Assembly: GCA_903813345.2 (NCBI GenBank)
Contig: CAIIXF020000006.1
Location: 5,878,989 to 5,942,988, forward strand
DNA: 64,000 nucleotides
DNA from: Owenia fusiformis
Taxonomy: Eukaryota; Annelida; Polychaeta; Sabellida; Oweniidae
Reading direction: 5' to 3'
Both the position numbers and the translations under genes were made by a program. The notes under the pieces were generated by a model, which was not told the DNA's origin, did not search any database, and worked only from the letters and a program-made list of their open reading frames with translations. Positions 15,101 to 64,000 of the stretch are shown piece by piece (positions within the stretch are counted from its first letter, which is position 1; the number at the start of each line of letters is the position of its first letter).

Positions 15101-18100
15101 TTATCAATTTTTGAGACACTTAGGGCAGAAAGTCGAGATACTCTACACATCTTTTCTCAGGGTAATTATTAAGAATGTATTAGAACATCCAATTGGGTTA
15201 GTGTTAAAGTCGGTGTTAACGTGACGTAGTTATCATTGCTACACGGGTTCTCAACGCAATACACTGAATAGAACATACAAATACAATAGTGACCTAATTC
15301 CTCATACTTACTTTCAAAGTCGATACCAGCCAGATGCCCATACATACTCAACTAGACAATATAATCAAGGGGCAGTTAGTCCTATTTTTGATGATTCCCA
15401 TCTACCCGATTACCTTAATGAGTATTAGACACATACATTCTTGGTAGATATCACCACAAACAGGAACAGTACTGGAGTGAATGATGCTGTAGCATTTTAA
15501 TTCCATCTAGGCTCTCATACATTTAAACCAGGGATCCATTTGGGCATTTTTAAACGAATAGATGTTCGAGTAAATTCTTGAGAAGTGCGTAAGACTTTGC
15601 GTAAGACCTTGTGCTTATAATTTGTTTGACATGATGAATGACACATTTTATATCAGCTGAACTTGTCATGTGATGACAATTTATCACTTAGATCATATTG
15701 GTAATTTATTACTGCACTTACACGAAAAACTCTGCTAAAGTAACTTAAAAATCGTTTCTAAAGGGTCAAGTGTTTTACTTGTTTTTCGAAAAGGCTTTCA
15801 TGCACTTTCATGATTTTGATATAGAATATATACAGTGGAAGTGTACATGTGTCGGCGCATTTCGGATATACACGAACCTGTGTTCATTAAAAGTCTTTCG
15901 TCTATTGGTTGTCACAAACATGATTTGATATTTAAACGTGCTGCCAGGGAAGCACTTGATTGGGAAGTGTAAGATCGTTCCGGTAAAATGAAGATTTAAC
16001 TATTTTGCATGTTTCGAACAATGAGGACAGAACATACTATTTGGGATTGAAAAGATTTTGATTTCGCTCGGGAGAAATGGTATAAATCCGGTTAATGCGG
16101 TTTATTTTAATCCGTCACGATTAATTCAATTCAATTAATTTGAGTAAACATTTTTAAAATCATTCAAAATAGTAAGCTTTGAATTTAAAAAAAAAAAATT
16201 GCGTGAGACCCCCCACGGGGGGAGGGTGGGAACTTGATACGCAATATTGCCCTGGGATTAGGAATTTGGTGCAGAATTTCGTCCCGGGAGTGGGGAATTC
16301 GATTTACATGTACCTGCTGGGAGTGGGGAGCTGCTAAAATTAAGGTCTGTTGCCAGAGAATAATAAAGGATTGTTCCTCTGATTTTCGAAAAGTCTCAGT
16401 TCGAATGGGAAACTGTAGATTCAGTCACAGTATTCTGCATAAAGTAGAAGTTATATTTTCATGATATTTTGAACTTCTTAAATATTGGACTTGGATGAAC
16501 AGTTCTTTCAGAGTTTTTCATTATTCAATTTCTTTTGCAAAATGAAAAATCACCACACATGATTTCTGTTGCATTGCCCAATAGAATATTCCCATACGAT
16601 AGGAATTACTTTACAATAATAAGACAAGTTAACAAGGCAGTTAATGTTAATGTATGCCGAGTTTTAAATATCAATCCATTTGAATTTGAAATTTTGGTGC
16701 AGAGTGAATAAAAATGGTGAGCCCATTTTAACTTGGAATCAAAGATTACTCCAAGAACATTAACATGCTTTAGCTAGTTTACCATTTCTAAAAGTTAATC
16801 ATTTGATTTCATTTCAAAGTTGTAAATTTCGTTCACTTTTTTTGTCAAAAATCAGTAGTTTTTGGCTACATACGTCTTAATCTATCAAATGTCATAAACC
16901 CTATCTCGTATTTGTGCTCATAGACTTATGCCGGCTTTTAATGACAAGAGGTCAATGTGTTTCATGAAACACGTCTGTAGTGTTATGTTATGTCAAGTCA
17001 TGTCATGTCAAGTCAAGTCATGTCATGTCATGTCATGTTGTGGTATGTTATGTTATGATTGTTTTGCTATGTTATTTTATGTTTTGTCTTGCTATGTTAT
17101 GTTGTGTTTGTTATGTTGTGTTATGTTATGCTATGTTATGTTATGTTATGTTATGTTATGTTATGTTATGTTATGTTATGTTATGTTATGTTATGTTTGT
17201 TTTGACATGTTATGTTGTGTTATGTTTTGTTATGTTACAGTATGCTATGTTATGTTGTGTTGTGTTTGTTGTGTTATGCTTGTAATGTTACATTATGTTA
17301 TGTTATGTTATGTTATGTTATGCTTGCTATATTATGTTATGTTATGTTATGCTTGCTATGTTATGTTGTGTTATGTTATGTTTGTTATGTTATGTTATGT
17401 TTGTTATGTTATGTTTTAACCCCGTTCTTTTCCTTAATGTGTACATGTTTTGTTTGTGTTTTGTCTCGTATGTTTATTATCACTGTGGTTCCCTCAACCG
17501 CTCATTATTATCTTCATGCGTTGTGTGTTTGAATCTATCACTTACTGCAATAATTTCTACATTCCGTTATTCTTTACAGTCTCTTGTTGCGGCTGTTGAT
17601 TTGAAGATCTTTGACCACCTAGAGGGAGCTGGTAAACCTCTGAAGGCAACCGAAGTAGCCAAAAACCTTGAACTTAATGCACCTTACACAAAGCGCTTCC
17701 TTGACGTTCTCACAGCCATGAAACTTGTCAAGAAAAACTCAGAAGAAGGTAAAATCGTCAAAATCAGCATTAATATCTCCCCAGTTCAAATAACAATAGT
17801 TTGTTCAGTCAAGGCCAGTAAATACCATTTTGTCAAATCGAATTGATATTTACCTTTACTAATAGCCTAAAATGATCTCAGGTTTACAATTTGTGGTTTC
17901 AGAAACCTATACGAATGAGCCGTTAAGCTCTAAATATCTTGTCAGATCCAGTCCCGATTGTATGGCAGGGGCAGCAGTTTACGAGCGCACAATAGAGATA
18001 CCAACACAGGCTTGGCTCGCTAATGCTATCAGAACAGGTAATTTCAATAGCGCCATCTTCACACGAGAATACTATACTAGTATCCTGACAAGTCAGATAC

Positions 18101-59960: not shown

Positions 59961-62108
59961 GTTAGGTTTTACCTGTCTTTGCCATTATTTAAGTAATTTT
60001 GGTCATACAATCAATGTTATCGCCTATTTACACACTTTATTGGAAGACTTTGTTACATGTAATAATGATTATTTGCTCCATACAGACAAATAATATTGTA
60101 TGCATGTAGATTTACATGTGGTATCACATATACTACTACTGCTTGTTTTACAACTACATTGTACCTTAGCAACCAGTTTTCAGCACTTGTATTCTGTAAA
60201 ACTTTTAGGTACTGTAAATGGCTCAATGGGCAACCAGAATTTTCTTCCAAAATGAATACATAAAACAGTATAAAGACAGCCTATACACTCTACAAAGCTG
60301 CAGTCAAAGAGAGTTAACATCACATAAGGAATTATATCTGTGCCCATGTACCTTGCAATATGTTGAAATGAGTTCATAACTAATTTTAGTTAATACTATA
60401 ATAATCAAATCAAATATTGTAATTAATAGTATTATGCACACAATTAGTTGGATTTAGAATTGGGAGATTGTCAATTGAGATGTGCAAGGACGTCTATCTG
60501 AGATAGACGTCAGTAATAAGGGTGAGGTGAGGTGCCCCCTTCTCACCTCCAGTAATGTAATGTTCTCTTATTGTAAATGTCTGCTTTAATTGTACATTGC
60601 TCTATGTTATTGGACATTAGCTTTACAGTCACATAACAAGCAAATACATTCCTTCTTGCTTCTTTATTGTATTGTAATGTTATTTGTTTATTTATTATAC
60701 ATCCTAGATTGACAGAAATGAAAATATTACAATAAGCATCTGAAGCTAGCAAATCTGAAATTGTTCATATTAGTATTAGATAAATCTCAACCCTTGGTCT
60801 GATTTCTTTCTTTTGTAAAGTGGTGTATGCATATTTTTGATTTATCAGGATCCTATTAGAGGTTAAGGTTAAATATCAATCTGGGACTGTAAGGTTGCCT
60901 TTAGTCAATTTTTTCATGCATTGGCATTTGAATAATGTAACTGTATTCCATGCAGTAATATTTGAATTATATAACTTAATAAAAAAGATCTATATAATAT
61001 TCATATGAAATCCTATATGTTTTGTGAATATATTGACAGTACTGCAACTTTATTGGAGCAGTTTCTGAGATAAAGCCCACCTCTTTTTGTGAACAATTCA
61101 ATTTGACACTTCCTATCTCCATCATAACTGAGCGATTACCTTGCTGTTGTAGTAGTGACGCTATATTTTGTACATGTGTTGTTAATCACTGAAAGTCAGA
61201 ATAAATGAATTAATAAAACAGACAATATATAAAAGATTGGAATACACACACATTTGGTGGTGATGTATTTAACAAAAAGTTGTACTTGATATTGATTGGG
61301 CACATCGTCCATGTCATTCTGGTACTAGTGCTGTCCAAATAATCTTGAAATTTTTGTCTTATTCTAATTTGGTTCCTTTGACTTCAAGTTTCACATAGTA
61401 ATGATCTTCAAACATTTATTGTAAAGTTTGAAAGAATAACAATAGTTTTGTTTCGGGCATTTTTCAGGAGACTAAAATCAAGACATTGTCTAACATTTTT
61501 GAATTTAAGGGCCTGTAGATCTGCAATATCTCGGCGACAAAAAGTGCTAGGACATTCTAGTTTGCATCAATTGATGGTGTTTTGTTGGATTCCAAAATGC
61601 TTATAATAGGAAAATTGGTTCCAAACTTTCCCGCCAAATGAGCAACTAAGAAGTGCGAAACAAGGTTTTCCATTGAAAAGTGGGCGTCGCCTGCAATTTA
61701 ATCCAATGGGACGGCAGTAATGGCCGACCGACCAGTTTTGGCGTTATCTGATTTTGTTGAAAAAACAGTGTACTTCAACCACCGTTTGCAAACCCGTGTT
61801 AAAGACATTTTGTGATCTGAGAACATATGTCTTGTAATTGATTTTGTGAGGAAGCCAATTGTTTTGGCTTGAAACACAATAAAATCTTGAATCTACCTTC
61901 TTCCAAATTTTGAATATATTTTTTTAATCTCCCCCAGGCCCCTATTCCGATTTTTCAATATCACTATTTCGATGTTAGTGCTGTTGCTAGGTGGTTGCTA
62001 GGTAACATCATGGACCGAAATTATATTGGAACAATACCAGCGAGTGATACATTCATACATCTGTATACTAAATCGCTGATTGGCATTTGTTGTACATCTT
62101 GCAATATA
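59961..62108. other. Intergenic stretch after UAP1
   Basis: No gene is recognised. A 23-bp near-perfect palindrome (GACGTCTATCTGAGATAGAC and GTC) lies at 60489-60511. GTTGCTAGGTGGTTGCTAGG at 61983-62002 is a short direct repeat. 61530-61870 is less AT-rich and looks repeat-derived, but I found no partner copy. Confidence 0.45.
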
Positions 62109-63393
62109 CGGTGTATAACCCAAACGCTCCTACATGCACGACGGAGCGTTTCATTACTGAAATTAAACAAAGAAACGCTCCGGAGTAGGAAAACTGGCTG
62201 GCGGGAATGATGAGCCGTCTGACGATTTCCCCAATAATGGGAATAAGAGGCATGAGTCACATATTTCGAGTATACCATTCGATGGGTGTGATATTCATGT
62301 TGTACGTGGCTGGCTGTTGACGTTTGAAGCAATTAGGAAGAGCTATACGAAGCAGTATAGTTATCAAAATTCAAAAACGTATTTGTCATTCTACCGGTCA
62401 AAACCCCTTTTGTCGATACATGTGATTAGTTGAGCCAAGATTAGAGCACCAACGTATATTTTAGTCAAATTCCATTGCTTCAACGCACCATACATTATTG
62501 TAATAGTGATTTGATGACCGAAAATCCAGTCTTAAAAATGATGACATTCTCATATTCAAGAAACGCTCCGATCTGATTAACACAGTGAACTGGAAACGCT
62601 CCGGTAGTCTAGATCAGTTAAGGAAATATATAGCTTTCCTTTTCAGGAAGAGAAAGGAAAGATCTATTATACCCCTTGGCATCCATAGAAGAAAGATTAA
62701 TTCACATATAAATTTTCGTTTTTTTCTATAGTTTTATGATTTAGCACATATGTAGGCATGACATCATCTAATGTATAGGCTTAAATCAGCTAGTTGCACG
62801 TTAAGCACCACCAGGTTCAGATGTTTCAATTTGCCTAACAAGTACAACACGTTTTTAAGAGATAGATTCGATTCGGGACTCTTCTCTAATAATCTGAAAA
62901 TGATATCAAAACAAAATGGTAAGAGCGTTTCTAAAATTGTGTTCTAAATCGACGGAGCGTTTCGAGGAAAACAAGCGATTTCTCGAGAACAAGTAATGGA
63001 TTTGGACTGGGATTTTAGGAAATGAGAATATACGAGTTTGTGATCTACTACTTTAACAGAAAGATTAACGTTTTCATAGAAATACTAGTTTAATTCGTAA
63101 TTTGTGGTCAAAACGTCATCTTCAGATTCGTTCGATCTACACTACGGTGCTTTGATCAAGCAAATAACAGTTTACCACCAGAAGTTGAATAAATAAGATC
63201 TTTGCTCACGGTATTGTTCATCGAATGGTACATAATATTTCACCATAACATATGATATGTAAGAGAAACGAGAGAAACAATACTTACGGTCATAGTGGAA
63301 TCTTCATTAGCCGCCATTTTATTTCGCTCCGGAGCGTTTCCGCGTAAATGTAACGCTCCGTCGTGCATGTAGGAGCGTTTGGGGTATACACCG
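62109..63393. mobile_element. 1.28-kb element with 42-bp inverted ends and a GGAGCGTTT motif array
   Basis: Left end 62109-62150 starts CGGTGTATAACCCAAACGCT; the complement of the right end (63352-63393) starts CGGTGTATACCCCAAACGCT. The two match for about 42 bp through CTACATGCACGACGGAGCGT. The 9-mer GGAGCGTTT or its complement occurs 8 times exactly and twice with one mismatch between 62121 and 63380, including inside both ends. No transposase frame and no clear target duplication. A short candidate exon lies on the minus strand near the right end. It could be a transposon that carries binding sites, or a promoter region flanked by an inverted repeat. Confidence 0.7.
63288..63317 (-). CDS. 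Candidate first coding exon (10 codons) within the motif element
   Basis: On the minus strand, ATGGCGGCTAATG starts at 63317 and ten codons (MAANEDSTMT) end exactly at a strong donor, GTAAGT (63287 downward). GGAGCG motifs lie just upstream, as a promoter might be arranged. No downstream exon could be assigned with confidence. It may be the start of a gene transcribed leftward, or chance. Confidence 0.25.
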
Positions 63394-64000
63394 TGTGAAT
63401 GCTAGACAAAAACGAGTTGAAATCAATTTTACGTTACATTGATTTCAATGGGATTTTGTGATACATGCTATCTTTGAAAGTGTGTAACTTCAGTTCTAGA
63501 AAAGCTTTTACCCTTTTACCATGACTAGTTTCTGGCAAAGCATTTTTGCACAAAAAATGTTTAAGAAATTTGACAATTTATCACAAAATATCAAAAATGT
63601 TCACCACCTACGTTGACCTGTGTTGACCTACTTTTTAAAACCAGAACAATGGCAACGCCAAAGCGTAGCGAATCCCATCGAACAGAAATGGCTGGCATTT
63701 TTACAAACGAAATATATAGCAAACATCATAAAACAACACACCAGAAAGGCCACCATTTTCAAAATGGTTGCTCACTAGCCAAGTTGTCATCAGAAGAAAT
63801 AATATGCTTTTAAGTAGCCACCTATAAAATCTTTGAAAAATCGCATACATGTACTTGTAAAATAACACACATAAAAATGGTGGCCATTTTTCAAAATGAC
63901 TGACTACTCCCCAAAGTTTTATTAGACAATGTGCCATGCTTAAAGTATTCACATATCAAATATGAACAAAATTGCTCCACTACTTTTCGAGTTATAGTAA
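63394..64000. other. Right edge of the window
   Basis: No gene is recognised. Two diverged direct copies of about 40 bp (AAACAACACACCAGAAAGGC at 63740 and AAATAACACACATAAAAATG at 63860, both running into ATTTTxCAAAATG) lie about 120 bp apart. Confidence 0.4.

Follow-up and report, generated by a model that had tools for sequence, protein, structure and literature searches.

A 64,000-bp stretch of the Owenia fusiformis genome (contig CAIIXF020000006.1, positions 5,878,989 to 5,942,988; hereafter the window) carries near its right-hand edge ten copies of a 9-bp motif, GGAGCGTTT, enclosed by inverted ends. An earlier note took this arrangement for an element or a promoter, perhaps a mobile promoter. 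Which of these is it, and what might the array of motifs do? When the whole window was scanned for GGAGCGTTT on both strands with at most one mismatch, 13 matches were found; shuffling, a check that the note had proposed, gave an expectation of 5.3 +/- 2.25, and none of 100 shuffles reached 13. Ten of the 13 matches fall within the 1.29 kb of the element and agree within 1 base with the sites originally listed (eight exact, two with one mismatch). All eight exact matches in the window lie inside the element and none outside it.

Three of the sites are at the left end (62122–62130, minus strand, AAACGCTCC on the plus strand; 62143–62151, plus strand, GGAGCGTTT; 62173–62181, minus strand, in the long form GAAACGCTCCGG) and three at the right (63331–63339, plus; 63351–63359, minus, reading TAACGCTCC on the plus strand with one mismatch; 63372–63380, plus). 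Four inner sites lie between them (62561–62569 and 62594–62602, both minus; 62922–62930, plus, AGAGCGTTT with one mismatch; 62954–62962, plus). Each inverted end thus contains the pair of oppositely oriented motifs that had been described, with a third site just inside it. The ends themselves, given as 42 bp in the note, are real and a little longer: the arms at 62108–62155 and 63347–63394 span 48 nt with 96% complementarity in the window sequence, and the family consensus described below extends the TIRs to 49 bp (62107–62155 and 63347–63395; TIR identity 96–98%). Further inside, TACCATTCGATG at 62273–62284 and CATCGAATGGTA at 63219–63230 form a perfect 12-bp inverted pair, each arm roughly 166 bp from its end, and are possibly a second binding motif.

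We searched the genome (498 Mb in 525 contigs) for other copies. When the right-end TIR was used exactly as it stands in the window, it matched only itself, this copy being mutated, and the consensus TIR was used instead. Forty full-length copies, the window's own included, were scored (the best 40 of 634 first-look candidates); they are 96–98% identical and sit on most large contigs. A consensus built from 31 copies is 1294 bp long, with a mean divergence of 1.5% to the consensus and 2.6% between pairs. Together with the full-length matches it delimits the window copy, a member of the young subfamily, to 62107–63395 (1,289 bp). The left TIR (plus strand, consensus CACGGTGTATAACCCAAACGCTCCTACATGCACGACGGAGCGTTTCATT) begins in this copy with T instead of C, and the right TIR (minus strand), CACGGTGTATACCCC, differs from the consensus by one change.

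The note had suggested a search for the ends. The young TIR core CACGGTGTATAACCCAAACGCTCC, with at most one mismatch, occurs 241 times in forward and 249 times in reverse orientation, i.e. 490 ends, against 0 for a reversed-pattern control, and an older TIR variant, CACGGTGTCCAACCCAAACG (CACGGTGTCC...), accounts for a further 282 ends (137 + 145). If ends pair, there would be about 385 elements across both subfamilies, which is an estimate and not an element count. Elements with older TIRs are mostly 85–92% identical to the young consensus, and many are rearranged or carry other insertions. All consensus ends, young and older, read CACGGTG...CACCGTG. Unpaired ends and over-long pairs were MITEs with one mutated end, truncated, or carrying insertions. 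One 70-bp element (L068, G000:C1:37568537-37568606) consists of little beyond a facing pair of older-subfamily TIRs.

Among 47 copies with both ends readable, 35 are flanked by a target-site duplication of exactly 5 bp, and 41 match at four or more of the five duplicated bases; no other length is supported. Among the first copies compared, 17 had shown a 5-bp duplication. The window copy, flanked by CAATA and TGAAT, has none and is probably immobile. The duplicated bases are 19–20% GC, versus 39% in the 10-bp flanks. Reconstruction of the empty sites revealed a palindromic target, CC-WWWWW-GG, i.e. CC(A/T)5GG; in 34 of 70 half-sites the base immediately flanking the duplication is C (P about 1e-7 to 1e-9, the half-sites of one insertion being treated as independent). 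The element contains no open frame over about 100 aa, and an Rfam search with it gave no match. The many copies and their target-site duplications bear out the proposal of a mobile element with inverted ends. With TIRs, dispersed copies, a duplication of fixed length, and no transposase gene inside, the element is almost certainly a MITE-like non-autonomous DNA transposon.

To which branch of DNA transposons does it belong? The CAC-starting, RSS-heptamer-like ends and the 5-bp duplications lead us to place it, tentatively, in the Transib/RAG branch, the lineage from which RAG, the recombinase of vertebrate antibody genes, arose; on these two features we hold the placement to be more likely than not. 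Transib target duplications are 5 bp long (PMC3276498; PMC1852546), and protostome RAG-like TIRs start with CAC and generate 5-bp duplications, the CAC triplet being invariant in Transib/RAG-like ends (PMC7204232). The likeness to Transib (HzTransib, hopper/transib2, and non-autonomous derivatives) covers the heptamer-like termini, the length of the duplication, and a palindromic target that extends beyond it. The targets themselves differ: Drosophila hopper and transib2 favor CCANTGG with 5-bp duplications (PMC3276498), whereas that of the element has a longer AT core, with CC/GG outside it, and yields an AT-rich duplication. A GC-rich duplicated target is typical of, though not strictly defining for, Transib/RAG elements, and ProtoRAG performs better when the duplication is GC-rich; here the duplicated bases are about 20% GC. 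No A-rich nonamer of the RSS kind stands 12 or 23 bp away from the heptamer (consensus positions 20–28 read GCTCCTACA and 31–39 CACGACGGA). Against the placement stand the AT-rich duplications and the failure of the searches described below to find a matching enzyme. None of the papers searched ties CACGGTG to a Transib element.

RAG-like (RAGL) transposons offer a second comparison. ProtoRAG/RAGL elements share with the MITE the CAC ends, the 5-bp duplications, a YY1-type motif near both ends, and inward-facing genes (PMC7481187, PMC7204232), and non-autonomous RAGL elements have been reported in pearl oyster (PMC7204232). The protostome RAGL consensus CACTWMCAAAC, however, differs from the CACGGTGTATAACC of the element, the YY1-type site is located about 80 bp from the end and not inside the first 47 bp, and no RAG1L with the ends of the element was found by the Pfam RAG1 model.

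Looking for copies with a transposase, as the note had advised, yielded none: among the ends listed (100 of the 490 young and 100 of the 282 older), in an assembly that may have gaps, no Transib or RAG1-like transposase with MITE ends was found. Looking for ends with non-MITE DNA behind them gave one truncated mini-element, and looking directly behind the first 24 bp of ends gave none. The Pfam RAG1 model had no match in the genome at E ≤ 0.001, nor did two HzTransib stretches, 51 and 202 aa long, that were taken from PDB 6pqn via phmmer. Matches to a degenerate Transib motif pattern were due to chance only.

At E ≤ 10, the Pfam RAG1 model did pick up a RAG1-like family, with ends unlike those of the MITE; the model can therefore detect remote members in this genome. 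The family is a 5.4-kb repeat with ends CATATCGAGATTTT... (CATATCGAG...), copies of which lie at L058 (G000:C1:15858500-15865500) and L059 (G000:C8:5757300-5764000). It encodes an intact protein of roughly 726 aa that bears a weak resemblance to the C-terminal core of RAG1 (Pfam E 0.0035), and has at least five long copies as well as more distant paralogues at 26–39% identity. Its CATATCGAG... ends are unrelated to those of the MITE, with which it has no sequence similarity, and no 5-bp target duplication was visible in two copies. The repeat may be a CMCT-group transposon.

The main rival to the Transib/RAG placement is a non-autonomous transposon of another superfamily with 5-bp duplications, e.g. 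of the hAT5 type, whose array would represent subterminal repeats bound by a hAT transposase. We consider this rather unlikely. It would accommodate the AT-rich duplications, a misfit to the usual Transib preference, and the failure to find a Transib transposase among the searches made, and the subterminal AAACG-type repeats recall the AAACGG repeats of maize Ac. On the other hand, the end CACGG has one mismatch to the hAT consensus YARNG, with C where hAT elements have A or G, and its CAC triplet is the invariant one of Transib/RAG-like ends. Families of hAT elements with 5-bp duplications do exist (PMC12730594).

The MITE could also have arisen by deletion from some other CMCT-group element with CA..TG ends (EnSpm, Chapaev, Mirage, Plavaka, or ESTA-like), and the 5.4-kb RAG1-like element might then mobilize it in trans; we regard this as quite unlikely. 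CMCT lineages share CA..TG ends and duplications of 2–5 bp (PMC12730594), and the genome does contain a family of RAG1-like transposases whose frames are intact. The TIRs of the 5.4-kb element, CATATCGAGATTTT, are nevertheless unlike CACGGTGTATAACCC, two of its copies lack a visible 5-bp duplication, and the CMCT lineage for which a length of 5 bp is reported is Transib (PMC1852546; PMC3276498). If the Transib/RAG placement is correct, the genome holds numerous, fairly young RAG-like substrates for which the searches made did not find a RAG1 or Transib gene that matches, a family useful for asking how recombinase recognition sites evolved beyond the heptamer. If it is not, this is still a clear MITE family with a phased array of putative binding sites, an inward start codon, and a splice donor.

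We then turned to the array itself. In the consensus its sites start at 16−, 37+, 67−, 455−, 488−, 821+, 853+, 1230+, 1250−, and 1271+ (sign, strand), so that order and orientation are mirror-symmetric, with three sites per end and two per inner half. Neighboring sites lie 20–33 bp apart by these coordinates, near two or three helical turns. Across the 90 motif positions, young copies have 17 substitutions where random windows would predict 44 (P 0.014); variable columns are also fewer (P 0.008). In older copies, the first site is often AAACGCTCT, and the sites are no better conserved than their flanks, which makes the conservation argument a moderate one. The suggestion of an array of binding sites fits these data: since the array is family-wide and, in young copies, varies less than the remaining sequence, we favor reading it as putative binding sites for a transposase or a host factor. 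A literature search with AAACGCTCC returned incidental matches only. Outside the sites the two halves show no detectable homology, and their descent from one long, old inverted repeat was rejected (inner alignment score 153.8; shuffles 130 +/- 11).

The opinion that no known family has this arrangement is not supported. In end sequence and in its 5-bp duplication the element agrees with the Transib/RAG type, and other cut-and-paste transposons are known to carry arrays of short subterminal sites in either orientation. In CACTA elements such as En/Spm and in the hAT element Ac, many short subterminal repeats in both orientations are bound by an element-encoded protein, and the MITE likewise bears numerous short repeats close to its two ends, in either orientation. 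It differs from them in its 5-bp duplication (3 bp for CACTA, 8 bp for Ac) and in its end sequences. To our knowledge, a dense GGAGCGTTT-type array has no counterpart in Transib. A plausible mode of action is that a transposase made elsewhere would recognize the element by its CACGGTG ends, cut it out, and place it into a CC(A/T)5GG target, whose five central bases become duplicated. The array would most likely be bound by the transposase's own DNA-binding domain or by a host factor, and could help to bring the two ends together, drive transcription inward from each end, or both. Such transcription would have run into what were once two convergent genes.

Traces of genes of this kind may be preserved at the ends. 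At the right end, a YY1-type site, CGCCATTTT (63312–63320, plus strand; AAAATGGCG on the minus strand), overlaps an inward start codon and matches CGCCATNTT of the ProtoRAG TIRs (PMC7481187). The start codon would open a putative 10-codon first exon, MAANEDSTMT (63288–63317, minus strand), directly followed by a putative 5' splice donor, GTAAGT (63282–63287, minus strand); this ATG plus nine codons and the GTAAGT are conserved in nearly all copies read. An alignment of old and young copies reveals a decayed counterpart at the left end (62194–62255, plus strand): in several older copies an ATG (MAGGNDEPSDDFPNNGNK...) opens about 19 codons that lead to GTATGT, whereas young copies, the window's included, have CTG; in the window copy GCATGA stands where others have GTATGA/GTATGT. 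A start-codon context that doubles as a YY1-type site, AAAATGGCG, lies about 80 bp from each end. A start codon, mini-exon, and splice donor at each end are suggestive of inward-facing gene remnants. Peptides from the left end had no significant match in Pfam or PDB, and the two-gene reading remains suggestive.

In ProtoRAG, YY1 binds the TIRs and drives or regulates two inward genes (PMC7481187; RAG-like transposons are also treated in PMC7204232). From the layout we infer that the ends of the MITE may likewise have promoter activity, and the putative inward start codons, YY1-type site, and splice donors lend indirect support to the idea of a mobile promoter. That the locus is instead a host gene's promoter or regulatory region is highly improbable despite its dense conserved sites, YY1-type motif, and right-end start codon, being refuted by the hundreds of copies scattered through the genome, with their precise ends and 5-bp duplications; domestication of the single window copy as a promoter is possible. 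A bolder scenario, which we offer as speculative and doubtful, is that an annelid RAG-type family with two convergent genes lost its RAG1-like gene and survives as hundreds of mini-elements. Its promoters would be the phased GGAGCGTTT sites plus the YY1-type site in or next to the inverted ends, and the array would be a new, multi-site replacement for the nonamer, the distal binding element of RAG signal sequences.

Two other features of the window were noted. Two adjacent open frames at 1387–2355 resemble a tyrosine recombinase (...GHSLRSRGATTG...) and possibly come from another mobile element. An open frame at 17286–17846, adjoining simple repeats, resembles an acetylserotonin O-methyltransferase-like gene in its N-terminal part.
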